A stretch of DNA of 64,000 bases, taken from Branchiostoma floridae. Lineage: Eukaryota; Chordata; Leptocardii; Amphioxiformes; Branchiostomatidae. This document shows positions 5,948 through 57,928 of the stretch, one piece after another; positions within the stretch are counted from its first letter, which is position 1, and each line of letters starts with the position of its first letter. The position numbers were made by a program, and so were the translations under genes. Under the pieces are notes generated by a model. That model did not search any database, had not been told where the DNA came from, and worked only from the letters and a program-made list of their open reading frames with translations. The stretch lies in assembly GCF_000003815.2 (NCBI RefSeq), contig NC_049996.1, forward strand, positions 8,763,310 to 8,827,309. Reading direction: 5' to 3'.

Positions 5948-5970
5948 CAAGGATGTTTTTAACCTCCTTG
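5948..5970. mobile_element. Ultra-short palindromic insert (decayed)
   Basis: 23 bp, CAAGGATG...ACCTCCTTG. Flanks CGTTTGA (5941-5947) and ATTTTGA (5971-5977) agree at 5 of 7 positions, consistent with an old 7-bp target duplication. Confidence 0.5.
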
Positions 5971-6012
5971 ATTTTGAAATTGTCGGCAGAAACAGTGGGT
6001 ATAGAAATAGTA

Positions 6013-6252
6013 TCGTGTTGTAATGCAGTGTAGTGTAGTGTAAAGTAGTGCAGTGTAGTGTTGTTCAGTGAAGAGGTAGTTAAGTGCAGTACAGTGTGTA
6101 GTGCAAGTAAAGTAGTGTAGTGTAGTGTAGTGCAGTGTAAAGTTAAGTAGAGTAGTAAAGTGCATTGTAGTGTAAAGTAGCGTAGTGTAGTGTGTAGTGT
6201 GAAATAAATTAGTGTACTGAAGTGTAGTGTAGTGTAGTGTAGTTCAGTGTAG
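6013..6252. repeat. AGTGT pentamer array
   Basis: Degenerate tandem repeat of a TGTAG/AGTGT pentamer, about 240 bp. It generates the Tyr/Leu/His/Thr-rich minus-strand ORFs across it. Confidence 0.9.
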
Positions 6253-7837
6253 TAAACGTAATAAACGGGGACACGGAATAAAGGTCCGCAAAAAAAGTGT
6301 ATAGTAATGCTATAAGCGAAGGACAGGGCCTGTAAGATTTCCTGTGCCCTTGCCCTGAACCCGTTCTTCAAGGATCCTCCCATGATGCCCTGGGGTTGGG
6401 TTCTTCCCTTACTAATTACTAGTATACATACAAGGCAACAGTCACAGTCTACAGGGCAGTATTTTATATGGTTGACACCATAGGTGATTTATAGTGCTTT
6501 CGTTATCATCGTCATATATAATATCAAAATTGAAAAGCAGTGCTGACCTGACTTTGATACGATAGGGGTCGCTTTTTCACTGCCTGGACTTCTGTAGGTA
6601 AATGCATTAAAATCGTGTCTATTAATTTTGATGTTGCACACTTTGTAATCTTAAGATACGTAACTTCAGGCTTTAATAGGTGCCGTGGCCCCTCAGACTT
6701 TCATCGTAGACAGGTTAACGCCCTAGTTAGCAATCAGAAGGATACCATGATGCTTTGCGCAGCAGAGTTTTGGCGGGAGGTTCAAAATGGCGGACTTGAC
6801 AACATTGTCGATCAGGACTCTTCATATTAACATAGTGAGAAGTACACGACACGTAAATGCGACAACTAGTCGGATTGGGTAAGTAGTTTTCCTCAGTTTT
6901 GAGTCTCAATGACCGTAGGTGTTGATGAAAAAAAGCATGTCTTCCACCACAATTGTGTAGCTTGTTGAATTTTGTGGTAAACGCAGGTGGAAGTCACGTT
7001 CATTTACAACTGTATCAAGAAGCAAGAAGAGGTTAACCTGCTTTGAAGCACTAATTCCTGCGGTATCAAAGTCAGACATGAAAGTCACATATCACGTGTC
7101 GCTCAAAGTTGGAAAAGTTGGCCTCTTGGCTTTATGACGAGAGGTGGCCTGGCTGTGACCCGGGGATTAACATAGTGTTCTGCTGGTTTCCTTCGCTACC
7201 AACCTACAGGCACGCTATAAGGCCACACTGACTAACTATTATGGATAGCATCCTCTAGAGACCCCAAAACTAATGTGCGAGGGCGAAAAAAAAGAAAAAT
7301 CCAGCAAAACAATGCAGCTTAACCACAGGACTAGACATCCAGTCCATTCTTTCCCAGCTTTGGTTTGTCTTAATGTTTGCATCCAGCAAGCCTATATGAG
7401 AAAGGCATCGCAATTTCAACAATGTTTTTATTTCCATTCTTTTATCAAGGAGGGAACAAGGGCGCTGTGGTCCCATGCCCCGACCATGAGTGGATGTCAT
7501 CCATAAAACTAAGCCAGTGTGGCCTAAAGTATGCGTGACAAACTAGCCCGTTAAGAACCAATGGGAAGCCTCAATGGTCGATCATGGCGTTATTTCTACG
7601 TGACTGGTCCTCTATACAGAGTTAGAGACCCCATGCAGTGCCCCCTAGTAAATACGCCTTTACAGAACGCACGAGCATATATCTTGGCTCTAACGACGTG
7701 TCACGTTGAGAGTTGCTCCATTTGGTAGTTACTATCTACACAAGATATCTTCTGTGATAACGATAATGGACAAGACATTGATATGTTTCATGCCTATTAT
7801 CGTACATAGTAGATAATGGGTATGGGTCACTATGGGA

Positions 7838-8502
7838 NNNNNNNNNNNNNNNNNNNNNNNNNNNNNNNNNNNNNNNNNNNNNNNNNNNNNNNNNNNNNNN
7901 NNNNNNNNNNNNNNNNNNNNNNNNNNNNNNNNNNNNNNNNNNNNNNNNNNNNNNNNNNNNNNNNNNNNNNNNNNNNNNNNNNNNNNNNNNNNNNNNNNNN
8001 NNNNNNNNNNNNNNNNNNNNNNNNNNNNNNNNNNNNNNNNNNNNNNNNNNNNNNNNNNNNNNNNNNNNNNNNNNNNNNNNNNNNNNNNNNNNNNNNNNNN
8101 NNNNNNNNNNNNNNNNNNNNNNNNNNNNNNNNNNNNNNNNNNNNNNNNNNNNNNNNNNNNNNNNNNNNNNNNNNNNNNNNNNNNNNNNNNNNNNNNNNNN
8201 NNNNNNNNNNNNNNNNNNNNNNNNNNNNNNNNNNNNNNNNNNNNNNNNNNNNNNNNNNNNNNNNNNNNNNNNNNNNNNNNNNNNNNNNNNNNNNNNNNNN
8301 NNNNNNNNNNNNNNNNNNNNNNNNNNNNNNNNNNNNNNNNNNNNNNNNNNNNNNNNNNNNNNNNNNNNNNNNNNNNNNNNNNNNNNNNNNNNNNNNNNNN
8401 NNNNNNNNNNNNNNNNNNNNNNNNNNNNNNNNNNNNNNNNNNNNNNNNNNNNNNNNNNNNNNNNNNNNNNNNNNNNNNNNNNNNNNNNNNNNNNNNNNNN
8501 NN
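7838..8502. other. Assembly gap (665 N)
   Basis: A run of 665 N. Its non-round length suggests a size estimated from read pairs or an alignment. The very long ORFs across it are artefacts. Confidence 0.98.
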
Positions 8503-10523
8503 TGCAATCAGCCCGAAGCTAAACATTTCTGTCCGGAAAGAGTTCGTGACGCAGGTTTGACAATAACAACATAAGTATGTCCACGTTGTGACCATTATCA
8601 TTACCAGATAGATAAAGACATTTTCTACATTCTCTACGTTATAGTATCTATGTATCCCCTGGCAGTACTACAAGCCTTTGGGTATAAGTTTGCAAATTTA
8701 ATTATTATTCTCCCAGTTGCAAGATAGCCTGAGCTCTCTCGCTTTTCTTTCGGGACAACACGACTCAAATTTTTAGATCCAATCCTATCTGGCCTCTCTT
8801 TTCCCTCTCGCAAACACGCTGAAAAGTTCTCAGCAGTTTGTTCCTGGTAGTGACAGATTTTATCTGCGTGTCGGAATGGGACTGGCACCGCCATTGTGAC
8901 CGGGAGATGTTTGCCTCCTTATTCCAGCCACTCCAATTTTACACGGCTCATTTTGGCGGCTCGTCGCTCGTGGTGTTCTTTGTGGGTTTGTCTCCGCACG
9001 AAGGGGAGCCTCTCGACGTTTTGACTTGGAAATAGCTGGGAACTTCTTAGGAGGAAAATAAGACATTTTAGAGACATCTCTAACTCGGCACTGATGGTAG
9101 ATTTTCTACACAAGAATCATCTGTAATATGACCATCATTCGCGGTCCATCATTGGATCTTCAGATAGTTTTTCAAAGTCTTTGGTTTCGTTTTTGAGAAC
9201 TTTTTAAGGCATGATCAACTTTAATCGTTAATTGGTCGTTGTGAATAAACGTTTGCGTCATGTTTGAGTATTTCCAATAATTGCTGCACGAAATTTTAAA
9301 CTTCTAACACGCTATACTTGAAGGTGGTCATGAGAGACCATAGAAAAGCGCATCGCCATATTTTGTAAAAAAAATCGTTCTTCAAACTTTAAAGATTGAC
9401 GAGGCAAGAAAACCAAGATGACACCGTGATTGAAAGCTCAAGTTGCTTGTCTCCATTCTGTACAAATCTCCCTCGTCACGGGTCATCTGAGGTCAGCACC
9501 TTGCGCTTGCCCCTGTTTACGACATTCCTGCTGTCCCGGACCGTCCAGTCGCATTACTATCGGTTCCTGGCAATGTCGCGAACATAATACACGCCCCCCT
9601 CCCCCATACTATCAAACTCTGCGAATGTAATACTAGTATAAACCTGCCCAAGAAGACCACTCAGGGGGACCGGTAAGATCTGGTCTATGTGGGAAGGTGG
9701 TCACTATAAACAGGGTCCTAATGATTGTGTCAATGGGAGAAGTTCAATGTACCACCAAAAAGTGGTCACATTGGCCAGGTAATCATTATATAGAGGTGGT
9801 CACTTGTCCAGGTTTAACTGCAATTGCATACAGGAGTCAAATTCTGCTTAAGTGCTTTTCTCGCAGCGATGACAGCATTTATTAATCAATACGCGAGCAA
9901 GTTATAATTTCAATTCCTTCTAATATTGGAGGCAATTCTAGATACTACAAATACAACTGATATACCTGCATACATTGTCGTAAGTAAGTATACCCCCTCC
10001 CCCATGACATCAAGGTCTGTAAACCAATCAACTGTATAATTGCACAAGGCCAATTCATCTTAACTTCAACAGACTGGGGTCTTTGTAATACTTTCCGTGA
10101 ATAGTATCATTTCTTCCTCAATATACTAGGGTGTTAAAATTTCAATTCCTTTAAAAAGTTTTGGAGTCTATGTACTAGTATGTAGACATGAATACTCATG
10201 ATTACAACTGAGTGGTAAATTTGCAGACAGTTTTCGCCTTTTCGGTACTAAATTATACTATTTGAAAACCCACAGTCTTGGAGTGTCACGACGCTTCAGT
10301 AATAACAGTGTAGTCCAAAGTCAGGACTTAAGTGTCCACGCTTTGACTAGTGTATACTGTGTTAACATGGCCAGTCTAACGTAGTACATCGTGCATGAAA
10401 ATACTTGGAGCTTACAGGATTTGCAAGATCAATTCTGATGACTTCATTTTGGGTATAAATACGTGGTGTGTATTGAGGATTGCGTGAGAGTCGCAGGGAT
10501 TTTTTGTATCTGGAAACATGTTT

Positions 10524-13180
10524 AGTGACGCTGCCAGACTTAACGCCGAACAATGCGCACAATAACGTGCTATTTTTACCGAAGATGATTCCCTTGACTC
10601 AGAGGCACTAGGTGTTCAAAGCTAATGATGTCACTCTAAGCTTTCAGTCTTGACATTAATGGTTAGAACTTGTACAGTGAGCGAGTCTATTCGCAACAGT
10701 CCACTGCGTCGCATAGAATATCAAAGCAGATCTTTGGGACTTTTGTAAAGAATCACTCAAGTTTGTAAAGTTACAAATTTACTGGGAGATTTGAGTCAGG
10801 CAATTGATATATTACACAGAAAGTCAAATGACGCATTTAGACTTAACACCGGACAATGCGCACAATAACGTGCTATTTCTACTGAAGATGATTCCCTTGA
10901 CTCAGGCGCACGAGGCGTTCAAAGCTGATGATATGACTTAAGACGCTCTAAAAAGGACAGTCTTGACATTAATGGTTAGAACTTGTACAGAGAGCGAGTC
11001 TATTCGCAACAGTCCACTGTGTCCCATAGAATATCAAAGCAGATCTTTCGGCCTTTTGACTGTGAAGAATCACTCATCCCATGTTAACTATTTTTAAAAT
11101 TACAAATTTACTGGGAGATTTAAGTGAGTCAATGGATACGTTGTACATAAAAGTGCACTCACTGACGCTACCAGACTTACGCCGAACAATGCGCACAATA
11201 ACCTGCTATTTTTACTGAGGATGATTCCCCTACCCCAGGGTCACGAAGCGTTCAAAGCTAATGATGTTTTCTAAAGGACGGTCTTGACATTGATAGTTAC
11301 AACTTTCACAGCTACAGTGAGAACGTCTATTCGTACCAGTGCGTTGCATTGAACTTCTAAGCAGATCTTTCGGCATCTTGTGAAGAATCACTCATCTCAT
11401 GTTTGTAAATTAAAGTTACAAATTTACTGGGAGATTTAACATCATTTAAGTGAGTCAATGGATACGTTGCATAGAAAAGTACACTTATGCCAACCGACAT
11501 ACGCCGAACAATGCGCACAATAACGTGCTACATATCCTGAAAATTCCCTTGACCCATGCTCACGAGGAGTTCAAAGCTGATGATGTGACTTAAGATACTT
11601 TCAAAAAGACGGTCGGTCTTGACATTAATAGTTAGAACTTCTACAGCTACAATGAGCACGTCTATTAGTACCAGTACATTGCGTTGCATAGAAAATGTAA
11701 GCATGTCTTTCAGCCTTTGTGAAGAATCACTCATGTTTGTACTGTTACAAATTTGCTGGGAGATTTAACCGTTATTTAAGCGAGTTAAAGGATACGTTGT
11801 ATAGAACAGTACACTTATGCTACCAGACATACGCCTAACAATGCGCACAATGAAGTGCTATGTACTGAAGATGATTCCCTCGACCCATGGTCACGAGCCG
11901 TTCAAAGCCAATGATATGACTTAAGATGCTTTCAAAGGGACAGTTTTGGCGGTAGAACTTGCACAGCAAGTACGTCTATTCAAGGACGTCCTTGGTCTAT
12001 TCATAACACTGCATGGCGTAGAAAATCAAAGCAGATCTTTCAACCTTTTGTGAAGAATCACTCGTGTTTGGGCAAATTTACTGGGAGATTTAAGAAAATG
12101 TGTGGAGTGATTCAAGATTCGTTACAAGAAAAGTGCGTTTTGTGACGCTATTAGACAATGCGCACAATAACGTGCTATCTTTACTTAAGATGATTCGCCT
12201 GACTCAGGGAACGAGGCGTTCAAAGCTGATGATGTGACTTTTTCAAAAGGACAGTCTTGACATTAGATCTTGCACATAGAGCGAGTCTGTTTGTAACAGT
12301 CCATTTTTTTTTCTATTTGCTTTTGGACAGACGAGGACTATGTGGCACTGCACTCAAGTTTTGTAACTTATATTAACAATGCCACATACACGGTACAGAC
12401 AGAAGGAAAGCCGTGTAAAGTGCCTTTCCCAAGGGCACAACGTCGGGGACACAGTGGGAATCGAACTCAGGACCCATAGATTCCGAGCCGAAAGCTCTAC
12501 CAGTTGCGTAGCAATGAAAATCACACAGATCTCTCAGCCTTTTGTGAAGAATCGCCAGACTGGAATCGCTCGTGTTTGTGCAAATGTTTTTGGAGATTTA
12601 AGAATATGTGTGGAGTGATTCAAGGCACACGTTACAAGAAAAGTGCATTTGGATGACGCTATCAGACTTACGCCGAACAATGCGCACAATATTTAGCGTG
12701 CTAGTTTGTACTGAAGATGATCCCCTGACTCAGAGCACGAGACGTTCAAAACCAATGACATGACTTAAGGTGCTTCCAAAAGGACAGTCCTGACATTAGA
12801 ACTCTCACAGTTCTCGCAACAGTCCATTGCATAGCTTAGAAATTCAAAGCAGATCTTTCGGCCTTTTGTTAAGAATCACTCGTGTTTGTACAAATTTACT
12901 TGGAGATTTAAGAAAATGATTCAGAGTTACGTGCACTACGTGCACTGACTCAGAGTTGCGTGCGTATGGCAGACTTTCAAGCTAATCTGATACGACGTTG
13001 AATGCTTTCAAACGGACAGTTTTGACATTGTTCTAAATTTGCACTGGCACTACAAGTAACTTTTTTCTTAACGGCCCTCACATGATTACTGAGCTCAGAG
13101 AATGTCTCGTTTTTGTGTGTGTGAAGAATTACTCATGATTGTACAAATCAACGTTTACAGATATACAGAAAATGTGATGA
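10524..13180. repeat. Satellite of ~320-bp units downstream of Wnt1
   Basis: The anchor CAATGCGCAC recurs at 10551, 10854, 11187, 11509, 11839, 12156 and 12678, giving spacings of 303, 333, 322, 330, 317 and 522. The long interval contains a SINE. Each unit also carries TTGACATTA, CAAAGCAGATCTTTC, GTGAAGAATCACTC and AAATTTACTGGGAGATTTAA in the same order. A degenerate eighth unit fades out after about 12.95 kb. No ORF is conserved from unit to unit. Confidence 0.92.
12304..12504 (-). mobile_element. tRNA-derived SINE inserted in the satellite
   Basis: Minus-strand element with RNA polymerase III boxes: A-box-like CTGGTAGAGC (12503-12494) and B-box GAGTTCGATTC (12468-12458). A non-tRNA body with GTGCCCTTGGGAAAGGCACT follows, and it ends in an A-rich tail (plus-strand run of T from 12304). 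It splits a satellite unit, whose left part stops at AACAGTCCA and whose right part resumes at TGCGTAGCAATG. A clear target duplication was not identified. Confidence 0.8.
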
Positions 13181-13939
13181 GTAAGCCAATGTGGGCAATG
13201 TTACGTGGGCCGGGAGGAAACCCATTATACGTACGTTCTAACGTTTGCTCTTCGGAAACAACCTATGGTGGGTTTATGGCTATGCCGAATACACTTTGAG
13301 CCTGACCTTCGAGCCGCTCTCTTCGCAGACATCGGGAGAAGTTTTTTTTTCATTAGGGAGAGGGGGGTAGCTAATTCTGGAGTTTTAATATTTGCTAAGG
13401 TTCTCTATGTCGGGAAAGGGATTTTTAGCGAGTTTTCTTGTGAAGGCGCGAATATCATAGACCTTTTGCTGTAAACTTAGCTAATGCTGGTTCTTTACGG
13501 ACTAATTCTGTCACTGACTTAAACCATTATTCGTTATCTACGCGTTAAGCTCGCAATGTGTTAAGAAGAAGCCCCCTTACATAAACCCTCTACGAAGACA
13601 CCCCGAAGTAAGAAACAACAGAGACCGAGATCTTATAAAAAACATTGTATTCATGAACAGTCGAAGTGCAGCAGAGATATCTTTACACAGACCTTGCCAA
13701 TAGGATATTTTCATCAGTGAAAAGTGCAGGGAAGACACAGCATTATTGCACAATAATATTTTTCCACATTTGATATTCACATGTCATCTTTTCTGTCTCG
13801 CACACAACCTAACCCCATCCTCTGGGAATAAAGTGAAACTTTATACATACTGAACATGGTAATGTTAAAACGATTTCTATCAAACGGTTACTAGCGAGAG
13901 CGTCATAAAATCTGGCACAGTGCGTTGCCTGTGACGTAC
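13181..13939. other. Spacer between satellite and Wnt1 3' end
   Basis: No gene, RNA or repeat was recognised here. Confidence 0.4.
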
Positions 13940-14542
13940 TTTATTACGTCAAAGGTCAAAGTGTATAACTGTCTGTCGTAGGGTCCCGCCCTAGACTTAC
14001 GTCGGGTCACATCATAAGAACACAAACTCTAGTCAAATACTACACTTCTACATTCTCTACTAATCTTCGTACGACAATATCTTAAAACCATCGGGTTAAA
14101 GTAAAGAAACACATCCATAACTGTCAATGTCTAAACATTTCAAAGAATCTAGCCAAGTCAGGTATGCTAGTTGAGTCATCTAGTCGGGTCGATAAAAAGC
14201 ACAGAGGAGGATGCCTTTGCAGCAATAAATAATGTAAGATCTTTTCTCCACATTTATATATAAATATAGATTCATAAATAGTAAAATATGTACAAAATCG
14301 TCTGTTCCCTGCAGAGCTATGTATTGATATCGGGCCAGTGTGGATGATGACAAAAAGCTACAAGACGGAACGCACTCCTTCGTGTACACGCGTACGTTGT
14401 GTCGTCTGCCCATCCGTTGCATCTCTGATTTTACAGAGAAGTGCAGAGACTTGGGTGGCACGTTTGCCGTGGTCTTGGAATCTTAGTCCGTTTCTGTCCT
14501 TTGAAGGACTACGCTTACTACGGAAGACAGAAGCGAGTCCTA
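13940..14542 (-). other. Wnt1: Probable Wnt1 3' untranslated region
   Basis: Stretch directly downstream of the Wnt1 stop. The first canonical minus-strand AATAAA I find is at 13945-13940 (read as tttatt on the plus strand), about 600 bases past the stop. The 3' end is a guess from that signal alone; transcript data would settle it. Confidence 0.3.
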
Positions 14543-15031
14543 CTACAAGCACGTGTGGATGGTCTTCGTTCTGACGCACTCCTCGCACTTGACCTGGCAG
14601 CACCACTGGAACGTGCAGTTACACCTCTCCTTCGTCACCTCTTGTCTCGTCGCGTACCCCCTCCCGCAACACAACAGGTCGCAGCCGTCCAGTCCGCGTG
14701 ACGTCACGTTGCACTCTCTCCCTCTCGTCCCCTCGAAGCCGAGCCGTGGGTTGTTACGGCAGAAGTTGGGCGATCTCTCGTGGTAGACCAGGTCGTTGTC
14801 TGTGGGGAACTTGTGGCGGGAGTTCTTGGGGACGAGCCCGGTGACTTTCGCCCTGGAGCCCCGGTTGTTGCCGATGTCGGGGACCGCGACCTTGGAGGCG
14901 CCGTCGAACTTCTCCTTCAAGCTGTCGCCGACGTCTCGGAAGTTGGGGAGGCGCATCCAGCAGGTCTTCAGCGTGCAGGACCCCGACATGCCGTGGCACT
15001 TGCACTCTCTGCGCAGGTTTTCAGCTACAGC
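14543..15031 (-). CDS. Wnt1: Wnt1 exon 4: acylation site and C-terminal cysteine-rich domain
   Basis: The acceptor is TTTCAG just before 15031; the stop is TAG at 14545-14543. It encodes residues 215-376. In order: [19 protein letters not shown] with the acylated Ser230; [48 protein letters not shown]; and [16 protein letters not shown] in the thumb-like C-terminal domain that contacts Frizzled in known Wnt structures. The C-terminus HTCL matches the usual Wnt ending (a cysteine in the penultimate position). The overlapping plus-strand ORFs here are shadows of this GC-rich exon. Confidence 0.96.
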   Translation of the reverse strand, partial: AVAENLRRECKCHGMSGSCTLKTCWMRLPNFRDVGDSLKEKFDGASKVAVPDIGNNRGSRAKVTGLVPKNSRHKFPTDNDLVYHERSPNFCRNNPRLGFEGTRGRECNVTSRGLDGCDLLCCGRGYATRQEVTKERCNCTFQWCCQVKCEECVRTKTIHTCL

Positions 15032-18000
15032 CTGAAACATTCAGAAAAAAGAAAGCACGTCAGTCAATGTCATCTTGCAGAAATCAACAGGAATGACAAA
15101 AAAATGTGCGAAAAAGGTTTCCAGCACACTCGTGGCAATAAGCAACTGGAATCTGCCTTTGAGCTAACAATGCCTAAATGCACAACGTTAGCAATATTGA
15201 GACGCCTTGATTACTCCTAATGTGTTCTCCATCCGGGACATTGCAGCAAACCACACAAATGTCCCAGAAATACTGGCCGAATCTATCGTTTGTAATTTCG
15301 ACCCATTGTAAGAAGAATGTCCGAGGTCATCTTTCCGTTTGAGAAAGGAATCCTGCGATTTAGGGTGAATCAAAGGCAAGACGAGCGAGACAGATGATAC
15401 TCAATTTTGTGATTAGAGAGGTGAACCGGGGGTCACCGAAGAATACCCTTAAAGACAGCGTAGGGCTCTTAATAGCACCCATAAGCCTCAAGAATTCCTC
15501 ATAGATTGATAAGATCGATCTTTTTTCATCCATTTTAAGCAGGGAGTTAAGAATTGACATTCTAGTTCGCAGGTATTTGGGTTTTAGAAAAGGCGATGTC
15601 CCGACTCGAGGTATCCCGGATCATCTAGTCAACAAAAATGGCAGCTAGGGTCCACCCAAGATCAGCTGACAAACGAAAGGTCACTTCGAGTCAACGCTCC
15701 GAGATTATACACCCAGCACACGATTTATGGTCGTTCTCTTTTGCGAACATTTCTCGTAGTGCTCGAACAGCGAGACTTGGAACACGTGAACTGATGCGAA
15801 CAGGTAACTTGTGTGGTCGCTGGTTGGAGCTATGTACCGAAGGAATGGTTGTTTATTTAGATGCGGTGACGATGGGGGTGATACAATGTGCCAGTTTACG
15901 CACCCGAGGCGAATGTACTTATGTATCATTAATACGCGTCATTACCCACAATTACTGGTCATTAGGACTCAGGGAGGTGGAAACAGAGAAAACCAGGTGT
16001 CAAGAAAGATGGCGGGGGCATGCTGCATTTTACTGTTACGTCAGGCCGCGACCTGTGTGACGGCTAGTAAAGAAAACCAGTGGAAAATTGCGATGACTGT
16101 AATCTTCGGGACATCAAACAAACCGCCTGAGCCGCGAGGGATCATGGTTTATGACACACCTGTCATGGCTTACACGTAAAACTAAACGTGGGACATCTCC
16201 GACTTATTGTATCACGATATCTGTCTTAATCGCAGCGGCACGTGCTTCACTGGGGAGGTTTTATCCCCAATGTTATCTGCGTTATCTACCTATTGAAGAA
16301 AGACAAAAAATGTCACGCCTACAGGTGTACCCTTTACTGAAGTAGATAGTTGATACAGAGTGTTAAGTGCCTGTCCGGATGTGCTAAGATACACGAAATG
16401 GGTAACTCGATGCCACAATGTTGATTCTCATATCATAGCTCGGAGCTCGAAACGCTAAGATAGATATCGTCTTTTTTTAGCAGAAGAATGGTAGCAATGC
16501 AGAAATTTGCATGGTTGATGTGTAACTCTTTAAGGATTTTATTTTAGTGGGAAAACTTAGCCAATCGACTTTTTAGATTGTAATCTTTAAGAGATGGAAT
16601 CGAGGAGTACATAAACGCAAGACTACATTGTTCTTTATAGATAAAGATAAGGGACACATTTTTGCCTGACTTCAATGAAGTCGACCGATAGTTAGGAGGC
16701 CATGGCCGGGCTAGTAGACATCTGGACGGCGGGCTACGATTGGTGGGCTCCCGGGGAAACTGACTTTGACGCGGAGGAATGCTTGGAACACTATAATAAG
16801 GGGAGCGCACGGCCGGTGGTTATCCCAAAACAGTGCATCTAACCATCTATACTGCACCAGCTAAGTATGCCTTCAAAGGTGAGGTAATTACAGGCCGGTA
16901 GGGGGGAATTGTGATGGTTAGTGCTGTACGGTGGCACGGTTACGCACACCGTGTTGGTCCTAATCATCATCACGTATGTTTGTATTTTGGTAACGCGTAC
17001 ACACTGACATATATACAAATTATTTTCACATTACAATTTGCTGTTAATGGAGTGAAAAAAAATTGAGCGTGCCGCCTCGTTTCTGAAAAGTCGTCAACGC
17101 TATAAAACCGACCATGTTTGTTTGCATCAACTGAATGGTGTGGTGACCTAAAATTTATTGCCGCCATGGGTTTGCTTGTTTCTAAAACACCTCTAGAAAG
17201 AAAAGCGGAAATTTTCTGTTTGTTTGGACGGGACATCCGCGGTAAACGTCAACCCACGCGAGTTTGTTATGGCAAGAGCACGGCCCTGTGTTTACGCCGT
17301 CCTTGTTTAATAACCACTACATGGTCAATAATGACCACAAACTCACGAGGACGGAAACCCGCCTCTTACTCTGTCACTGACATGTGATGGGTAGGACCAC
17401 CCATCTCTTCAACCCGTCTTGCATTTAATTCACCCTTTTGCTCGCAGACAGTGGTAATCACGCTATAGTTTGAAATTTGTTCGTTAAGAATGCATGATGG
17501 GATAGGTAGAAAGAAAAAATGGCGACTTACCACCCTGCCTGCCTCGTTGTTGTGCATGTTGACCAGGTAGCGGACGGAGTCTTTCGTCTTCTCCCCAGCA
17601 TCCACGAACTGCTTGGCGAACTGCTTGCCGAACTCCACGTTGTCGGAGCAGCCTCCCCACTCCCAGTCCTCACCGGCAGGGCCCTTGCTTCGGTAGTCGC
17701 ACGAGCAGGTCTCGATCGTGCCCTCGGCGCAGTTTCGGCCGACTTCGTGAGCGACGGCAGCCGACATCACAGCGTAGATGAAAGCCGTTTCTCTACATCC
17801 TAGAAAAAAATAAATAAAAAATGTTCAAATTTTCTGCTTTTTTTACAATACCAACGAGGCAATAAAACGAGCGTGAGAACGAAGAGGTGTAAAAGTGATG
17901 ACGTCAACAATAATTACTTAGCTAATTGAAAGATTACTTAACACTCGCAATTAGCACATCTCAAGAAAGAAAGCGAGAAAGTTCCCAGACTTCCCCAAGG

Positions 18001-25740: not shown

Positions 25741-25761
25741 CAACGATTTTTAACCTCCTTG
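25741..25761. mobile_element. Ultra-short palindromic insert (decayed)
   Basis: 21 bp, CAACGATT...AACCTCCTTG. Flanks GTCTAAA (25734-25740) and GTCTGAG (25762-25768) match at 5 of 7 positions. Confidence 0.5.
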
Positions 25762-26585: not shown

Positions 26586-26612
26586 CAAGGAGGTCTCTAT
26601 ATAACCACATTG
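26586..26612. mobile_element. Ultra-short palindromic insert, intact 7-bp duplication
   Basis: 27 bp, CAAGGAGG...AACCACATTG, with a decayed right arm. It is flanked by GTAAATT on both sides (26579-26585 and 26613-26619). Confidence 0.7.
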
Positions 26613-27920: not shown

Positions 27921-27953
27921 CAAGGAGGTTATATTCAGAATATAACCTCCTTG
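27921..27953. mobile_element. Ultra-short palindromic insert, intact 7-bp duplication
   Basis: 33 bp, CAAGGAGGTTATA...TATAACCTCCTTG. It is flanked by GTCACTG on both sides (27914-27920 and 27954-27960). Confidence 0.85.
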
Positions 27954-29120: not shown

Positions 29121-29140
29121 TCAAGGAGGTTAACCTCCTT
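29121..29140. mobile_element. Ultra-short palindromic insert, smallest copy
   Basis: 20 bp, with an 18-bp perfect palindrome (AAGGAGGTTAACCTCCTT) at 29123-29140. It is flanked by AGTCTGG on both sides (29114-29120 and 29141-29147). Confidence 0.8.
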
Positions 29141-29672
29141 AGTCTGGCATTTTGTCTGGTAGATACTAAGAAAACGAAGCGCATTTGACAAGTGCTCGTT
29201 AGCGACAAGCCGCAAAATGTCATACGTCCCGCCCCCTGAATAGCTTTCCCACCAGGTGTTACGTGCAGACATGACTATGTGATAATTTGCCATTGACATA
29301 GCGACTATAATACCTGCCAATTTGTATAAACTTCTGACAACAAGGTGACAATTTGGTGGAAGGCTGAGTGTCTAATTCCCCGGGGCTTGCGACTGCCGTG
29401 AGAACGTGGGGACCGTCCCGCCGTTTTCGTCGCCAAGAGAGGGTGTAGAGTTCGGGAAGCTTCATTTTCCTTCTCGTGGATTTGTGATATTACAATAAAC
29501 AATACTAGTACATTTGTATATAATGCTCTTTTCTGAAGATTAGAAGTGATGCGCGCCATTTTGTAGCGTGTAGCAAGAAGGTTAGTACGCATACTTTAGA
29601 GGAAGACGCAGGACATTGTCAACAATTTCAAAGGAAAAACTTTCAAAAAGGCAGAAATAAATTCCCTAGATC

Positions 29673-29874: not shown

Positions 29875-29912
29875 CAAGGAGGTTAAAAATCACTCTTTTT
29901 TTAACCTCCTAG
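29875..29912. mobile_element. Ultra-short palindromic insert, intact 7-bp duplication
   Basis: 38 bp, CAAGGAGGTTAAAAA...TTTTTAACCTCCTAG. It is flanked by GTGAGAG on both sides (29868-29874 and 29913-29919). Confidence 0.85.
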
Positions 29913-29997: not shown

Positions 29998-30026
29998 CAA
30001 GAGGAGGTTCTTTTTTAACCTCCTTG
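29998..30026. mobile_element. Ultra-short palindromic insert, intact 7-bp duplication
   Basis: 29 bp, CAAGAGGAGGTT...AACCTCCTTG, with a two-base expansion in the left arm. It is flanked by AATAAAC on both sides (29991-29997 and 30027-30033). Confidence 0.85.
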
Positions 30027-35285: not shown

Positions 35286-35311
35286 CAAGGAGCTTTTATA
35301 AAAGCTTCTTG
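35286..35311. mobile_element. Ultra-short palindromic insert, variant arms
   Basis: 26 bp, CAAGGAGCTTTTA...TAAAAGCTTCTTG. It is flanked by CTTCAAC on both sides (35279-35285 and 35312-35318). The arms differ slightly from the other copies but are complementary to each other except at one pair. Confidence 0.8.
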
Positions 35312-38485: not shown

Positions 38486-38589
38486 TAATCTCAAAGTAGA
38501 TCTATAGGGAACAGTATCCAAAAAGGGCTAAACATTGTCCCGAGCTCTTGGATACTGTCTTTGCCCCAAATAGATCTGTATGGAGATTA
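38486..38589. mobile_element. Short variant of the TAATCTCC MITE family
   Basis: 104 bp, TAATCTCAAAGTAGATCTAT...AGATCTGTATGGAGATTA, with inner arms AACAGTATCCAA and TTGGATACTGTC. Flanks GGCCAACTT (38477-38485) and GGTCGACTT (38590-38598) match at 7 of 9. Confidence 0.75.
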
Positions 38590-39430: not shown

Positions 39431-39744
39431 GGGGCGTTCAGCTTCCAGTGGTACAGTTTACACATCGATGCAAAAGTTCTTCTTTAACAAGTTTCTTTGA
39501 AAAGAAATCGCTGAGCAAAACGACGGTGCTTTTATCAGGGTCAGACAAACATTAAGATCGCTCTCACTTCGCTTTAAAACCAAGTCGGGATGAGCCTCAG
39601 AATCCCTCTCTCCTCTGACGGCAACCGGAGCCAGTCTTCCTTCCCGTCTTGGCAAGCGTTGTCAGCTACACTCTTACGGTAGTCAGTAGTGGACAGAAGC
39701 TTGAGAATACACAATATATAATCCTCGGGGAGGGAACGCCTCGC

Positions 39745-40206
39745 TCATAAACACTCGTGCACAGTTTTGACCGCCGTGCATTTGGAGCACTTGACTACGC
39801 AGCACCAGTGAAAGCGACACTTGCAGTTTTCTTCCACGACCACCTGTCTCTCCTTGTACCCTCTCCCACAACACAACAAGTCACAGCCGCCGATCCCCAT
39901 GGACGTGGCGTTACAAGCCCGACCTTTGGTCCCTTGCGACCCTGTTTTTCTGTTCCTTTTGCAAAAATTCGGCGACTCGTTCGTATACACGAGGTCCTCT
40001 GCCGTGGGGGCTTTGATAGTGTCCCCGACGGGTATGAGATATTTGCCGTTGTTGGAGCCCATGACTTGGAAAGCGCCGTTAAACCTCTCCTTTAGCCGGA
40101 CCCCGACCTCCCGGAATATCGGCATCTTTTTCCAACACGTCTTTACTGCGCATGAGCCAGACAGTCCGTGGCACTTGCACTCCGTCCGCATGAAGTTCTT
40201 CACAGC
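39745..40206 (-). CDS. Wnt6: Wnt6 exon 4: acylation site and C-terminal cysteine-rich domain
   Basis: The acceptor is CCCCAG before 40206; the stop is TGA at 39747-39745. It encodes residues 191-343: AVKNFMRTECKCHGLSGSC with acylated Ser206, [56 protein letters not shown], and ENCKCRFHWCCVVKCSKC, ending HECL. The RFHWCCVVKC block and the VMGSNNGK segment are typical of Wnt6 rather than Wnt1. Confidence 0.96.
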   Translation of the reverse strand, partial: AVKNFMRTECKCHGLSGSCAVKTCWKKMPIFREVGVRLKERFNGAFQVMGSNNGKYLIPVGDTIKAPTAEDLVYTNESPNFCKRNRKTGSQGTKGRACNATSMGIGGCDLLCCGRGYKERQVVVEENCKCRFHWCCVVKCSKCTAVKTVHECL

Positions 40207-52200: not shown

Positions 52201-53955
52201 TGTGGGAAATTTGGTTCAAGGTTTCGGCCCTACAGTCAGTGGGTGGCGAGAAGGGGAGACGGGAAGCACTCACTAAGTGCAAGGGGCTTCCATGGAGAAC
52301 ATGCAAAAAATCACAAAGGGATTCTCTTTATATATATACGGTGGAATCGATAGTACACTACATCTCAATATCGACGCACTTAACTCATGACTACACCTAC
52401 CAAATCTGTAAAGCTACAACTAGAACAACCAATATTACACCTTTTGCCTCACCACAAACATAGGAATCTTAAGATTGATCAAGAATGTTCGGAGAAGCGC
52501 CCAATGCGAGTGAATCGTTGGTACATTAGCACATGGCCTCGACATATGGCCAGGTCACAGACATTTGGTCGACCGTCGTGACTAAAACAGAACGAAATTC
52601 CCAGCGACATTGTCCACACGCGTGGCTACGCTGTACAGAACTTTGCGGACACACTTACTGCGAGAGTTGAACCCACAGGATGAGAAAGTACAAGCCTTCA
52701 CATAGGCGCATGCTGGCCCTGGGAGCTGCCCGGTCGCAGCGCGCTTCTGACTGACGTACGCGGATAGGAGAGTGTGTTCTCGCGGCTAAATGGACCCCCC
52801 ACCCGGCAATCCTCCTCCAAATCCACCCGGAACGGACCGACCTCGTACCCAGGTAAACACGCCTGTTGTCTCCACCCGTAAACAAGTAGAACAACATATC
52901 CTTTCCTAATCCCCATCATTAAGTTACTGAATTTCACATTAGCAGGATTGTTGTCTCAACACCAATTTTCTCGTTAACGCGTTTCGTGGCCAAACAAAGA
53001 CGGGGGAGAGGTTCAAAATGCCGAGCGAACAATCCAGGGCCTACGGTAAAAAGGAGACCCCCTTTCTGGGCCGTGTTTTAAGCATTCAAAGATATCGGAA
53101 CGACCCCGAGGGCTCGGTTTGATAAGGGCTGCTATCTTTTTTGGTCTTTACGAGGCATTAACCAATCGTTTCCCCATGGGTTTCCAACATGAATATTCTA
53201 GCGACAGGACAATGGTAAAGAGAGGGGACAGCAATGCGATCCTCAAGTCACAAAAGTGGAGGGAAAAATTTTCCGCAAACACGACTCGGTTCTCTCGCTA
53301 TCTCTGTTATGATCTAACAAGATATGTCGACAAGACAAGACCTTGTTGTCAGTGACTATCCCTATGTTGTTTTACAAGGGATAAGTATTTTTGGGACTTA
53401 GCGTGATTTTTTTGTTACTCTTCACAAGGCTGTCATTGCGTGGAGCTGTCACATATGCCGAGTGTTCTTTACATGTAGTTATGAGAATATGTATAAGTCT
53501 CGGGGAGCTGTGCTTGCAGCTTCTCGGTAGACAAGGCCGTGGGTTCTTGTTAGGCGAGCCGGTGTCCTGGCGAATAAACGCGTCTATTGTACTTTACTCA
53601 CTGCGCACATATCGCTCCGAGCGAAGTAACGTCAGACAAAAGTTATTATCTGAATATGGCCACGGGCTGAAAAGCAGGACACCAATATGTAGCTGTGTCT
53701 AGAAAAACTGTGTGTAGAACTTTGCAAGGTGAACACACGCCTCTGCCCCCCTCCCTCCGATCTGACAAACACATACACCAGGGACGGGCGTCGCTACGTA
53801 CTACCTCCTGGGGCGGCTAAAAGGATCCTCGTGCAACAATTAAGTTTGTACGGGCCGATTACGCAGGGGTCTACTCACCACCACAGTCCTATAATGCTGG
53901 TAGGACAAAGCAGATAGAAGAAGAACACGGTGAAGACGAGGTGGGCAGAGGCCAT
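39745..53955 (-). CDS. Wnt6: Wnt6 gene (four coding exons, complete)
   Basis: Secreted Wnt ligand of the Wnt6 subfamily. The coding exons on the minus strand are 53879-53955, 51979-52199, 45922-46193 and 39745-40206. Together they give 1032 nt, or 343 residues plus TGA; human WNT6 is 365. Introns are GT...AG with phases 2, 1 and 0, identical in place and phase to Wnt1 in this window. Subfamily markers are GLWWAVGSPLVMD, ECQFQF, ACSMGELLQCGC-like SCSMGELLQCGC, GGCGDDIDFG, CKCHGLSGSC and ENCKCRFHWCCVVKC. Ser206 is the predicted Porcupine acylation site. NCS (exon 2) and NAT (exon 4) are potential N-glycosylation sites. The collagen-like Pro/Gly insert of vertebrate WNT6 is missing from exon 3, which accounts for the shorter length. 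Introns 1-3 are about 1.7, 5.8 and 5.7 kb, and the last two are full of repeats. Confidence 0.95.
41190..41510. repeat. Degenerate two-copy duplication (~189 bp) in Wnt6 intron 3
   Basis: GTTTGGTACAAC(G/A)GTTT occurs at 41300 and 41489, with related flanking words (CAAGTTTCCGATGCTCAATT against CAAGTTTCGACGATCCAATG; GAAGAAGAAT). Divergent, so old. Confidence 0.6.
42078..42204. mobile_element. TAGCCTGGG-family MITE with perfect 9-bp duplication
   Basis: 127 bp in Wnt6 intron 3: TAGCCTGGGTACCATCCGGA at the left and its exact complement TCCGGATGGTACCCAGGCTA at the right, with AGTAGTTCGCTCC and GGAGCGAACTACT further in. It is flanked by ATTCGTGTC on both sides (42069-42077 and 42205-42213). Confidence 0.95.
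44635..44801. mobile_element. TAATCTCC-family MITE in Wnt6 intron 3
   Basis: 167 bp, TAATCTCAAAGCAGATCCTA... to ...TAGGATCTGCTTGGAGATTA; inner arms GATAGTATCAAAAGCTGGCA and its near complement. Flanks CCTCGGTAG (44626-44634) and CCTCAGTAG (44802-44810) match at 8 of 9. Confidence 0.92.
45922..46193 (-). CDS. Wnt6: Wnt6 exon 3: central Wnt domain
   Basis: The acceptor is CTACAG before 46193 and the donor is GTGAGT at 45921-45916. Two bases finish the split Asp, then 90 residues (101-190): IRETAFVYAVTSAG, SCSMGELLQCGCDYQMKG, WEWGGCGDDIDFG, SREFMDA and LHNNEAGRL. Vertebrate WNT6 carries a Pro/Gly-rich, collagen-like run after the CGC motif; here a short CDYQMKGESPDGS linker takes its place. Confidence 0.95.
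46350..47045. repeat. Degenerate TCAATGATCTT short-period array in Wnt6 intron 2
   Basis: About 700 bp of loosely repeated CAATGATCTTTCAATGATCT words with an 11-12-base rhythm and many substitutions. It starts about 160 bases from exon 3 on the acceptor side. Confidence 0.85.
47941..48880. repeat. 153-bp tandem array in Wnt6 intron 2
   Basis: GATAAACATGC or its variant recurs at 47973, 48142, 48295, 48448, 48601 and 48761. The three middle spacings are exactly 153; the outer ones are 169 and 160. Units carry TTATGTCACTACTGATTTAG, ACTCCCAACTC and GAGTCGCTGGTAGAGTTT. Confidence 0.93.
49309..50335. repeat. ~115-bp tandem array in Wnt6 intron 2
   Basis: The anchor GTTTAGCTGAATA and variants recurs near 49311, 49418, 49533, 49650, 49742, 49867, 49992, 50114 and 50227. 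Units contain CCAGCGTTTGTTAGAAGTTT, GGGATATTGTTCGTTGAGAA and GGTTGCCGTATTTCCCGAGG. Confidence 0.93.
51747..51918. mobile_element. TAATCTCC-family MITE next to Wnt6 exon 2
   Basis: 172 bp, TAATCTCCAGGCAGAT... to ...CTGCTTGGAGATTA. Flanks AGAAATTCA (51738-51746) and ATAAATTCA (51919-51927) match at 8 of 9. It ends about 60 bases from the Wnt6 exon 2 donor. Confidence 0.92.
51979..52199 (-). CDS. Wnt6: Wnt6 exon 2: N-terminal Wnt domain
   Basis: The acceptor is CCACAG before 52199 and the donor is GTGAGA at 51978-51973. After one base completing the Trp codon it encodes 73 residues (27-99): AVGSPLVMDHRSICRKTRRL, the KQAEICRKEPEIVHEV helix, ECQFQFKERRWNCS, and FGRILNQ before a split Asp. A MITE (51747-51918) lies only about 60 bases inside the following intron, past the donor. 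Confidence 0.94.
53879..53955 (-). CDS. Wnt6: Wnt6 exon 1: start codon and signal peptide
   Basis: The ATG at 53955-53953 sits in a good Kozak context (GCCATGG). The exon encodes 25 residues plus TG of a split tryptophan. MASAHLVFTVFFFYLLCPTS is strongly hydrophobic and signal-like; it is followed by IIGLW. The donor is GTGAGT at 53878-53873. Splicing to exon 2 restores GLWWAVGSPLVMD, as in vertebrate WNT6. The exon is too short to stand out as an ORF and was found by looking for the missing start. Confidence 0.92.
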
Positions 53956-54800
53956 GGCTGCACCGGGGCTCCCTCGACAGGTCTGAGCGGTCGCCCGGGC
54001 GCGTCCCACCGACGGTTCTCGCTATGCCTTTCCCTCACGAAACACTCGCAATTTCAGACCAGGATCGGCAGGTCCCGTGTATCTCATGTATTTACATGGC
54101 CACTTGAAGTTTGTTTGGAGTATAATCAATATGATCAAATTAAGGCGACGTGATTGGTCCAGTGGGTCTGAATGGGCAACGACGTGTCAATCACTTTGTG
54201 GGTATCTACGTCATCGAGGCGGACCACTTGGCCGACAAAATTGAACTTTAATGGCATCTTCTCAGTTTTACAGCGGTAACGGTTTAGCTCCTAATACATT
54301 TCCTGTCACCGATTCATCGGAAAGTATCAGCATTCCCAATGGACTTCGAGTCTGCAGAGATCATTCTATTAAACTGGTGCTCAAAGCCGGAATGACAATC
54401 GGTCGAGACAGTTAGGCGGAGTTTTTCGGTGGAACCGTCGGCAGGAGGCACGATTTAAGGCGGAGCATGTTGCGCGGACAATGCCGCAGGAAAGGGCAGC
54501 CCGTACGGCATGTTAGTAGCCATTGAGCCGTTGACAAGGTTTGACATACGGGGGTAACACAACGGACTGAAGGGACACAGCTCTTTTTCAGCTTTTGCTA
54601 CTTGTTCTTCCACGGTCCCATCAGCTTTGTCCTTCTGAAAGAACGCCATATGCTGTTGCAGTGTTGTACCCGCTGTCCACTACAGTGTGTCGGACATTAT
54701 GGTGATAAGCAGGGGGCAAACTTGACCTTTGCCCTTGACGACCTTCCATATTGAAGAACAAACATGGCGACCGTGACGTCAGACCACCGACTCAAAGTGC
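53880..54800 (-). promoter_or_regulatory. Upstream region of Wnt6 (probable promoter and 5' UTR)
   Basis: The stretch 5' of the Wnt6 start is moderately GC-rich and free of the MITE families seen elsewhere in the window. No TATA box was recognised and the transcription start cannot be placed from sequence alone. It contains the unassigned minus-strand ORF at 54455-54649. Confidence 0.3.
54455..54649 (-). CDS. Unassigned 64-codon ORF upstream of Wnt6
   Basis: ATG at 54649, TAA at 54457-54455. I do not recognise the protein. Its makeup is unusually protein-like for this window: a charged N-terminal half (MAFFQKDKADGTVEEQ, then VAKAEKE), then a Pro/Tyr/Met-rich half (ELCPFSPLCYPRMSN, then MATNMPYGLPFP). 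There is no signal peptide or membrane segment. It lies about 500 bases upstream of the Wnt6 ATG on the same strand, so it could be an upstream ORF in the Wnt6 leader, an exon of another gene (TTTCAG inside codons 3-5 is a possible acceptor), a tiny independent gene, or chance. Confidence 0.25.
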   Translation of the reverse strand: MAFFQKDKADGTVEEQVAKAEKELCPFSPLCYPRMSNLVNGSMATNMPYGLPFPAALSAQHAPP

Positions 54801-55511
54801 CAAACAGACCGAGATCTAACGAATACTGACGACTTGACATCACAAAAGAATGGCTCTAAATAGCTGAAGAGTCATTCCCTAATTTGACAAGACATATATT
54901 AGCTGAACCTTTTCTATTACCTATTTTATGGATCTTCAATAACAGGCGTCTAACCGTCTAACTACCCAGTAAAATATATCTGATGTTACATAACTTGACT
55001 CGGAGATGAAATAAGATCATTCAATTTAAACATCGTTAACACTTCAAAGAAAGAGTTTGATGATCTCTTTTGTGTAAAAATATCACAAGTAAAAGTATTC
55101 GGTGATAAGCCGACTGCAAAACTAATCTATTCACAGTTTCTATAGGGAAACTATCGGAAAAACAAATAGGATAAGTTACCATGACAACGACAAGATGCAT
55201 TGTTCGCTCTTTATTTTCAAAATATCACCAGAGATGTGCGACAAAGACAACCATAAAGCAAACCAGTTCTAATCGTCCATTGTAGAGCTATTAATCGCAA
55301 GTCGCAATCTCTTGCAAACTCTTTTAGATACAGTTCATGGCTCCCAATACGGAGGGGGGATGTCTACCACAGAACTTTAAGAAATAATGTCAGCTTCACC
55401 AGTTTCAAATGTAGGACGTCCCGGTTTAGTAACAGCACTCTCCCCTATTGCCTCAGCGTCCTCAATGAAAACTTGTAGTGTTTTGAATAGAATCGGACAC
55501 GTTAGTTTTAA

Positions 55512-55537
55512 CAAGGAGGTGATTTTTAACCTCCTTG
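55512..55537. mobile_element. Ultra-short palindromic insert, intact 7-bp duplication
   Basis: 26 bp, CAAGGAGGTGA...TTAACCTCCTTG. It is flanked by GTTTTAA on both sides (55505-55511 and 55538-55544). Confidence 0.85.
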
Positions 55538-57904
55538 GTTTTAACGAATTCAATATGTTGTATGTACGTATACCGTTAATGTAAAGAGAACAATGTACAA
55601 AAATTGTAATTAGGGTGCAACAGTTTTTAATCTAATAAACCATTTCTCATTTCTCTCGCTGAAGAATAACGTGCTGTACCCGCTTTGCAAAGACCATGGC
55701 TCAGAGTTTGGATAAGCCATGTTTGCCCTAGTCGCGTGCGTTTATTTTCCCAAGCTCTTAGAACCCTTCAAATCAAACACGGCGGAAACCCTCGACCATG
55801 TGCTGTCCGCCCTTTTCCGTAACAATAGGCAAACTGGGTACACAACGTCCTGGTCTTTCCATGGTTGTCAGGGAAGGAAGTCTAGCAATGTACGGCTTCT
55901 ATAGACCAGGCACGTACGGCAATCTTTGTGTATTACCATTTACACTACGTTTCCACTGGAGGCTACGTCTGTGCCGATCAAAGATTTGGCGAATTGCTCA
56001 ACGAATCTCAAACAAAAGGCAATAATCTTTTTACGCTTTGCATGTTGTTGTCTTTTTGTCTTTAAAATCATACTTTTACATCGTGCACTATATTCCTATT
56101 ACAAAATCAAGGGCCATACAAACCCAACTTTGGTCACTATATAAATGTTCTTGTCGTATGGTCGTTTGGCGATCACTGTCTAATGGAAACGAGGCTCAAA
56201 TTTTTCCACATTCTGACAAGAGAAAGTTAGCACTTTCACTTCTATGACACACGACAAGGACGTTTCGCCCCGAAAGCTATTCATATATTTGTCTGTTAGG
56301 CCATCAAACAAGGCACATGCTTTTGGAGAAATTCATCAGGTTGACGTTTTTGTAGGGTACTAGTATTTGTTCTTCAGCGCATTGAGCATCTACGTTGCCA
56401 TGGCAACCCTTCGCCTTCGGTGACTGCAAGATGTTTCAGACAGCTGACCAATGCATTCAAGACGCTGTTTTGAAGATTATTTTTTCTTAATTTTAGCAGC
56501 GTGTGGGCGTGAGAGCCTGTGGACAATATGTGACCCAGAGAACGGAAAGGGTCCGCCTGACGCAATACGGTCTTTCTTTAGAATCTCCTTTCAATTGGAT
56601 CTAGAAAAAATACATCTAGTCGATGACGTAGATTTGTTTGACGTATAGAGCATTTTTGGCAACGCCTAAGGGAGGGATGCGTTCTTCTTGCAAGCTATGA
56701 GAGGTATTACCGAAAGATGATGTACGTAGTTCTTAGCGTAGAGTTGAAGATGGGAAACGAATACCGAACACTGTTGTTCCTACGTCGCCATTATTTAACT
56801 CGTGATCACTGATGTTTTATACCCATACATACATAGCAATTTTGAAAGGTGCCCAACTGATATCTATACAGATTTTAGGGTGAAATATTGTAACAATTCG
56901 ACTGACTTTCGAACTTCATTTTTTGGGGTTAAAGCTCTGCTGTATCCGATACATGTGTGATGAATATTGTCCAATCAAATTTGTGAAAACCAGCTCATGA
57001 TGACATCATGAGTATACGCATGCGCATTAGATAATTGGTCGAGCGTTAGAACTGGACAGGAAAAGCTACATTAGATGACGTCATGATTAACCGGATTTGA
57101 CTTCTGCGGCTACACCTCTTTGTGCGGTTGATACTTTAAGACCTATTTCTTTCACTTCAAACGCTGGACGATGAAAGGAATGGTGAGGAAACGGTAAACA
57201 ATCTGTCTGATATGTTATCGAAGTGGAACTGCTGAATGACTCATAGTGAATGGAGGTGTTTTTATCTATTTTTTTAAAGCTTGGCAAAAAGAACTTTGGT
57301 AGCACATTCTTAACCCTTTAAGACGCATCCAAGACGCAATACTGTTTTAAGGTGCTTCTTCTATCAATCCATCTGTTGTCTTGTCTTCGAGTCGTGTTAT
57401 GCTGTGTTATGTGAAAGGAGAACGCCTGGTGATAGTGGTAGCGTTACCAACTACAGGAGAATTTTAATGGATCGTTTCCTACCCGTCACTATGCAGATTT
57501 AGAGAGGAGCCATTTAGTTCACAGCGTCTTGCAAGTTGTCTTTTTCAATTTTACAACGTTTAGCCCATTTTAAAGATCTCAAACCCGTTTCTACGATTGA
57601 TGGTTGGATCAGAAAACAAAGCTACTGGAGATCTAAGAACCGTCCTTCCCCTGTATAGATATAAATCATCATAGTAGAACAGGGCTACTTCTAAGGCTAA
57701 CGTCAAAAATAGAAATGTATATGATGTATAGTTTAGTGACTTTAATATCATACTTTTTGTTCCCGAAAGCTGCCCGGCCGGGCCCCGGTTTGGAAATGTG
57801 ACCCAAGCCTAAAGGAGCTTCACACGAAGCATGGAACATCCTAGTTTTCAGTTGTAAGCGAAAACTATTTCTTCAGCCTGTTCAGTACGTGAAATTACTA
57901 GAAG

Positions 57905-57928
57905 CAAGGAGGTCATATAACCTCCTTG
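57905..57928. mobile_element. Ultra-short palindromic insert, intact 7-bp duplication
   Basis: 24 bp, CAAGGAGGTCA...ATAACCTCCTTG. It is flanked by CTAGAAG on both sides (57898-57904 and 57929-57935). Confidence 0.85.

Follow-up and report, generated by a model that had tools for sequence, protein, structure and literature searches.

Palindromes with 7-bp flanking repeats in the amphioxus genome as probable excision scars of P-superfamily transposons

Short palindromes flanked by 7-bp direct repeats occur in a 64-kb stretch of the genome of the amphioxus Branchiostoma floridae (contig NC_049996.1, here C18, positions 8763310-8827309; the window) and at many other places in the same genome. A lancelet fluorescent protein has 68 exon-sized matches in this genome, most of them clustered on two contigs, with identities of up to 88% (over 34 residues) and 85% (over 55 residues), as expected for Branchiostoma, whereas the Pfam GFP family matched neither this genome nor the control genomes. 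These palindromes are very probably scars of P-superfamily DNA transposons which inserted with a duplication of 7 bp (occasionally 8 bp) of the target and were later excised. Rather than an element of a new kind, they constitute an extensive and legible fossil record of P-type excision in a chordate. Three GG-type ends (families A and B and the C11 type) and a GC lineage are distinguished below, with C and L numbers denoting contigs and fetched loci, respectively.

Palindromes and their flanking repeats

An earlier examination of the window, made from the letters without database searches (the sequence-only reading), had listed ten CAAGGAGG/CCTCCTTG palindromes, all of which are present (Table 1). 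Eight of them (26586, 27921, 29121, 29875, 29998, 35286, 55512, and 57905) have perfect 7-bp flanks, including the decayed copy at 26586 on both of its sides, and two (5948 and 25741) have flanks that agree at 5 of 7 positions. A strict scan, in which each arm was permitted at most two and both arms together at most three mismatches to CAAGGAGS, and the flanks at most one, gave 8 sites in the window versus an average of 0.05 over 20 shuffles; these are seven of the ten palindromes (without 5948, 25741, and 29998) and a footprint at 11981-11994 which had been overlooked. By the same scan, other loci totalling 138.6 kb contain 3 sites (not counting the seed sites) and 50.9 kb around the longer elements described below contain 1, compared with the 8 of the 64-kb window; this enrichment may be due to selection because the window was chosen for its palindromes.

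Table 1. Footprints and Wnt exons of the window, and transposase-coding elements found elsewhere in the genome
Feature	Position	Strand	Sequence or size	Flanks, duplication, or domain match
Decayed footprint	5948..5970	.	CAAGGATGTTTTTAACCTCCTTG	CGTTTGA/ATTTTGA, 5/7 alike
Footprint, overlooked earlier	11981..11994	.	CAAGGACGTCCTTG	GTCTATT/GTCTATT; within a 330-bp tandem repeat
Wnt C-terminal exon	14546-15040	-		PF00110, 1.3e-64
Decayed footprint	25741..25761	.	CAACGATTTTTAACCTCCTTG	GTCTAAA/GTCTGAG, 5/7 alike
Decayed footprint	26586..26612	.		GTAAATT/GTAAATT
Family A footprint	27921..27953	.	33 bp, inverted repeat CAAGGAGGTTATATTCAGAAGGAGATTGGA	GTCACTG
Footprint	29121..29141	.	20 bp, CAAGGAGGTTAACCTCCTT(A)	AGTCTGG/AGTCTGG
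Footprint	29875..29912	.	38 bp, arms TTAAAAATCACTC / TTAAAAAAAGAG	GTGAGAG
Footprint, left arm with additional bases	29998..30026	.	CAAGAGGAGG	AATAAAC/AATAAAC
GC-lineage footprint	35286..35311	.	left arm CAAGGAGCTTTTAT	CTTCAAC
Wnt C-terminal exon	39748-40203	-		PF00110, 4.8e-61
Footprint	55512..55537	.	26 bp, CAAGGAGGTGATTTTTAACCTCCTTG	GTTTTAA
Footprint	57905..57928	.	24 bp, CAAGGAGGTCATATAACCTCCTTG	CTAGAAG
P transposase element	C19:10308832-10317273		8442 bp, ends CAAGGAGCTTTTATCAGGAGGAGAGAGCAAG	CTCTAAC, perfect (loci L005/L032/L033)
P transposase element	C11:17071456-17080139		8684 bp, ends CAAGGAGGTTGAATAAGGGAAAGGAGTCGG	AAGTCAT, perfect (loci L006/L034/L035/L078)

The genome-wide search proposed in the sequence-only reading covered 513,431,437 bp in 431 contigs. 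The exact pattern CAAGGAGG-N0-30-CCTCCTTG occurs at 2051 sites and its reversed control at 5, and CAAGGAGC-N0-30-GCTCCTTG occurs at 684 sites and its reversed control at 2. Part of the 2051 sites are copies of one footprint within a repeat (a 46-mer described below), so that they are not all independent events.

Flanks were scored in four sets of sites. The first consists of 40 consecutive GG-type sites from C1 (numbers 2 to 41 in a list of 50), the second of 20 GC-lineage sites that follow one another on C2 (out of 72 listed), the third of 20 family B sites on C3-C5 (consecutive except for four skipped 46-mers), and the fourth of 12 family A sites from fetched loci. Perfect 7-bp duplications were found at 23/40, 14/20, 17/20, and 11/12 sites, respectively, that is at 65 of the 92, and 82 of the 92 have at most one mismatch. 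In the C1 set, where a further 11 of the 40 sites show one mismatch, mispaired flanks gave 0.05% perfect and 1.2% one-mismatch pairs, and a shuffle that permitted self-pairing of a locus gave 1.6 and 1.8%. Mispaired flanks of the three control-tested sets (C1, GC, and B, the A set having no mispaired control) were perfect in at most 0.55% of pairs. The 65 perfect sites yield a palindromic-looking target consensus, T..GTNNNAC..A. The first site listed genome-wide, which lies outside the four sets, has three mismatches in its outer flanks and contains a shorter inner palindrome with CCTACAC on both sides. At 29121 in the window the frame can be shifted by one base: reading the footprint as CAAGG..CCTTA changes the flanks to GTCTGGT/GTCTGGC.

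Empty sites, which the sequence-only reading had suggested looking for in other individuals or species, were obtained in an internal form, as paralogous sites within this genome. Six other stretches of the 330-bp tandem repeat align with the region of the footprint at 11981 and none carries the palindrome; four have a single GTCTATT and two lack an intact 7-mer. L053 corresponds to two repeat copies in L028, each with a single 7-mer and one base different (TGGTAAC and GGGTGAC), and L041 has an empty counterpart in L022 (GTAACAC), the weakest case since only about 14 bp to the left of the site are alike. These observations bear on the idea that the palindromes are functional hairpins, regulatory or acting as RNA, that spread through selection. 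Their near-perfect symmetry and the position of some of them between two Wnt exons would suit such a role; however, locus-specific 7-bp repeats flush with the palindromes, empty paralogous sites, and decay are signatures of transposition that need no function, and this explanation is barely credible. Seven of the eleven footprints of the window lie at 25.7-35.3 kb, between the two Wnt C-terminal exons.

Longer elements and their transposases

Elements with the same ends as the palindromes, among them the long transposase-coding element that the sequence-only reading had proposed to look for, are present in the genome. Two such elements, on C19 and C11, have terminal inverted repeats and perfect 7-bp duplications (CTCTAAC and AAGTCAT) on either side of a P-superfamily transposase gene, and the first 14 nucleotides (nt) of the C19 element are identical to the left arm of the window footprint at 35286. 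In all, ten longer elements were delimited, eight of 0.7-1.6 kb and two of 8.4-8.7 kb, with inverted repeats of about 30 bp; nine have a 7-bp and one an 8-bp duplication. With parents that share both ends and duplications, the claim that the palindromes mark insertions made by a cut-and-paste transposase with 7-bp target duplications is borne out. The 8-bp duplication typical of P elements is restricted to one element and two scars, and 7 bp is the length in 9/10 elements and 65/92 scars.

The 16-nt end of family A, CAAGGAGGTTATATTC, matches the genome at 77 + 75 places, and this single pattern finds both the 33-bp palindromes and paired ends 733-1594 bp apart. Among the 152 matches, 97 fall in 62 short palindromes and 12 are the ends of six elements. 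These six pairs come from the first 100 of the matches listed, and all were fetched; their inverted ends, 28-31 bp long, are identical, with perfect 7-bp duplications in five and an 8-bp duplication (ATTATTGC) in one. For family B the end CAAGGAGGTTAAAGAA has 227 + 199 matches, and the two elements fetched, of 1157 and 1165 bp, both have 7-bp duplications. No open reading frame over 129 codons was found in the one A and one B element that were read. In L016 a complete A element of 1573 bp (1830-3402) has as its neighbour, 39 bp away, a 33-bp footprint (3442-3474) flanked by a 7-bp repeat of its own; local re-insertion is a possible reason for this proximity.

A family search with the P/THAP9 RNase H domain (PF21787) gave three matches in the genome; elements were delimited around the best two and the third is on C6. 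The second end of the C11 element was located by searching further DNA for its first end together with its 7-mer. Position C11:17072182 (CAAGGAGGTTGAAAAGAGGG) had been considered as an end of this element and was rejected because its flank is mismatched, the true ends being 17071456 and 17080139. The C19 transposase matches PF21787 (8.6e-22), PF21788 (1.9e-5), and PF21789 (3e-8), that is, an RNase H domain of P/THAP9 type split by a GTP-binding insertion. The C11 transposase matches PF21787 (77.6 bits) and PF21789 (3.3e-7), with no match to the GTP-binding domain in the piece of the element that was scanned. Over about 319 residues the two proteins share 59% identity, and the other 18 of 20 matches in a transposase search of the genome cover the query partially. 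A search of the PDB with the C11 transposase core returned nothing relevant.

Of the superfamilies named as candidates in the sequence-only reading, P-like and hAT-like, the former is supported by both transposase-coding elements and the latter finds no support. Transposons of the hAT superfamily commonly leave short footprints, and it could be supposed that they, or another superfamily, made the ends and scars and that the P genes are mere passengers. However, hAT duplications are of 8 bp and hAT footprints are not known to retain 17-20 nt of inverted repeat, and both coding elements with the present ends carry P/THAP9 RNase H domains. The elements show 7-bp duplications and P domains instead of the 8-bp duplication and transposase of hAT, for which no directed family search was made, and searches confined to PF21787 and the transposase query found no complete element with these ends and a non-P transposase. 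An origin from another superfamily is thus extremely improbable.

The N-termini of both transposases match PF12560 (RAG1_imp_bd; 7.1e-8 and 7.2e-10). They are 57% identical to each other, with six cysteines in common that are arranged as three CxxC pairs. The C11 protein also matches RAG1 chain 21wb (3.9e-7), a score made up of two stretches which are individually weak (0.92 and 0.012). A THAP domain, usual in the P superfamily yet outside the catalytic core, has no Pfam match in 5/6 forward frames upstream (frame 1 of C19 was outside the scan); RAG1_imp_bd stands in its place. PF12560 probably covers the domain named Chapa. Among known transposable elements Chapa, the N-terminal finger of RAG1, is confined to the Transib/Chapaev group according to Kapitonov and Koonin (PMC4411706), and a P-superfamily carrier of a RAG1-like N-terminus would extend this distribution.

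Both elements contain a second, convergent frame of about 350 amino acids (in C11, L034:943-1995, strand +), with 54% identity between them; its product has no Pfam match, and its fold prediction (mean predicted local distance difference test score 40.4) was not used. Near the same end of the C19 element there is a C2H2-finger-like frame (24.4 bits, just below the Pfam cut-off), and a similar frame was seen by eye in the C11 element.

Retained ends and joins

The sequence-only reading had counted the palindromes among the shortest of insertions, consisting of two terminal repeats and nothing more. This description is not supported, as the repeats of the parents are of about 30 bp and the palindromes keep at most their outermost 17-20 nt; the candidacy of the palindromes as the shortest transposons was rejected on this length cap, the variety of the joins, and the size of the parents, 0.7-8.7 kb. 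Retained lengths were counted at sites with at least 15 nt (GC) or at least 16 nt (A, B, and C11 type) of one arm exact, comprising all sites of A (62) and of the C11 type (14) and, for B (62) and GC (72), those among the first 100 of 254 and 629 matches, respectively; this scope applies to all B and GC counts below. Since bases shared at the join make arm lengths ambiguous, lower bounds of the longer arm are given. In the GC lineage at least 18 nt are kept at 8/72 sites and at least 19 at 1/72 (which keeps 27). Family A keeps at least 18 nt at 22/62 sites and more than 20 at none, by the lower and the upper bound alike, and more than 20 nt are kept at 3/62 sites in family B and at 2/14 with C11-type ends. 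Retained length therefore stops near 17 nt in the GC lineage and near 20 nt in the GG-type ends, with a minority beyond. Random deletion would give freely varying lengths, which were not observed.

A GGAG motif begins 0-2 nt past the stop in each kind of end (A, AGAA/GGAG; B, AGAG/AGGAG; C11, GGGA/AAGGAG; C19, TCAG/GAGGAG), and the C19 end has an additional GGAG overlapping the stop; this motif may set the position of the cut. Two unlinked A-type scars, in L018 (4910-4952) and at C7:24761637-24761690, have CACAAGGCCTTCTGA in common at the join, pointing to a variant end or a templated filler.

The structure of the scars, two target duplications enclosing the terminal bases of the inverted repeats up to an inner limit that a minority exceeds, is that of a P-type footprint, and the following course of events is proposed. 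A P-superfamily transposon inserted and duplicated 7 bp (occasionally 8 bp) of its target; on excision, the transposase would cut at the element boundary on one strand and 17 or 20 nt within the inverted repeat on the other, so that single-stranded inverted-repeat tails would stay on the donor chromosome. End joining by the host would then trim, anneal, and fill the two tails head to head, giving a palindrome between the two duplications that would afterwards decay neutrally. The 62 A scars with an exact 16-nt end, compared with six elements (among the first 100 of 152 matches listed), suggest that sealing by end joining is frequent.

The joins between the arms are varied. One to three bases are shared at 36/62 A, 34/62 B, and 26/72 GC sites, filler is present at 23/62, 11/62, and 28/72 (some of it probably point mutations), and 3, 17, and 18 joins are blunt. 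Leaving filler aside, 36/39 A, 34/51 B, and 26/44 GC joins share bases, against 50, 44, and 53% expected from random blunt joining. The excess in A is mostly one 3-nt join, found at 25/62 sites versus 7.7% expected. The GG-type families thus look like products of end joining that uses microhomology, of which the GC lineage gives little sign.

That recurrent join is a 33-bp sequence, identical at 25 places including 27921..27953 in the window, and it could speak for the palindromes being ultra-short mobile units, transposed in trans by a P transposase with a 7-bp duplication for each copy. Perfect duplications around pieces of only 14-16 bp could be seen in the same light. Yet the 33-mer fits a 3-nt GAA/TTC microhomology, the other 37/62 A sites show 31 further joins, the commonest B form accounts for only 6/62 sites, and three distinct GG-type ends have the same limit of retained length, near 20 nt. 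Moreover, P elements of Drosophila are said to require 138 and 216 bp of their ends to move (PMC1562414). Mobility of the palindromes themselves is consequently very unlikely.

One form of scar does seem to have been multiplied in another way. A 46-bp sequence containing the footprint CAACGAGGTTAACCTCCTTG occurs in L067 (flanks CTAAAAG/CTAAGAG) and at 10 other places among the 100 B matches listed, three copies differing by one base. Because it recurs, this footprint was apparently carried along when copies of another repeat family arose, and the 46-bp form was left out of the B count for this reason.

Several observations weigh against reading the palindromes as excision scars. At ten of the 92 fetched sites the 7-bp flanks differ at two or more positions, two of these sites (L038 and L112) carrying an 8-bp repeat instead. 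By upper bounds, more than 17 nt are kept at 12/72 GC sites (one of them keeping 27) and more than 20 at 8/62 B sites (21-23 nt) and 3/14 C11-type sites (21 nt), and two A sites would reach 22 nt on the assumption of a variant end; as the palindrome patterns spanned at most 52-54 bp, longer leftovers would have been missed. The 33-bp join may also be read as the spread of one sequence. The other 43 of the 152 A-end matches are mostly unassigned, the three that were fetched (L019, L020, and L029) being lone ends. Finally, excision and cleavage are inferred from the sequence of one genome.

Comparison with known P-type systems

The P transposase of Drosophila makes a staggered cut, at the element end on one strand and 17 nt further in on the other, which gives 17-nt single-stranded extensions (PMC7776569); a donor chromosome cut in this way should retain both duplications together with the outer 17 nt of either inverted repeat. 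The amphioxus scars agree with Drosophila P excision in a P-superfamily transposase, a long stagger, and, in the GC lineage, a stop near 17 nt, but the GG lineage stops near 20 nt, and the elements duplicate 7 bp whereas P duplicates 8 bp (PMC4168063), as do the P elements of zebrafish and Anopheles (PMC7776569, PMC1562414). Galileo, a member of the P superfamily in Drosophila, resembles the amphioxus elements in its 7-bp, rarely 8-bp, duplications and in a palindromic target, GTANTAC (PMC4168063), close to T..GTNNNAC..A; it differs from them in its terminal repeats, which are long rather than of about 30 bp, and in bearing a THAP domain instead of a RAG1-like zinc domain. The miniature inverted-repeat transposable elements of P type in Anopheles (P-MITEs) are likewise non-autonomous P derivatives, of 205-2450 bp and 5 to 310 copies (PMC1562414), but have 8-bp duplications, and the word footprint is absent from that paper.

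Within the open-access literature searched, no paper was recognised on P scars in amphioxus or on Chapa in P elements. Relative to this literature, three things appear to be new: a genome-wide record of P excision, a stagger of apparently 20 nt, and a zinc domain like the N-terminus of RAG1 in P transposases. A broader proposal, for and against which we see the balance as even, is that amphioxus harbors a P clade in which a RAG1-type (Chapa) zinc domain replaces THAP. Its two lineages would cleave their ends at 17 and 20 nt from the boundary, thousands of scars would document the two rulers in vivo, and transposons beyond Transib/Chapaev would have carried the RAG1 N-terminal domain about. The scars, up to about 2,700 exact sites, would give in vivo cutting geometry and repair outcomes without experiment. 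As two related lineages apparently differ in their stagger (17 versus 20 nt), the determinant of this unusual feature of P transposases becomes testable, and the presence of a RAG1-like zinc domain in a P transposase is relevant to the question of how the N-terminus of RAG1 originated.

The N-terminal domain of Chapaev, Transib, and RAG1 is the nearest parallel for this part of the amphioxus transposases, both of which match PF12560; unlike in Chapaev and Transib, it is joined here to a P-superfamily catalytic core. N-RAG-TP of Aplysia, which has RAG1 N-terminal-like sequence only, can be set beside the amphioxus elements by its description (PMC8355894).

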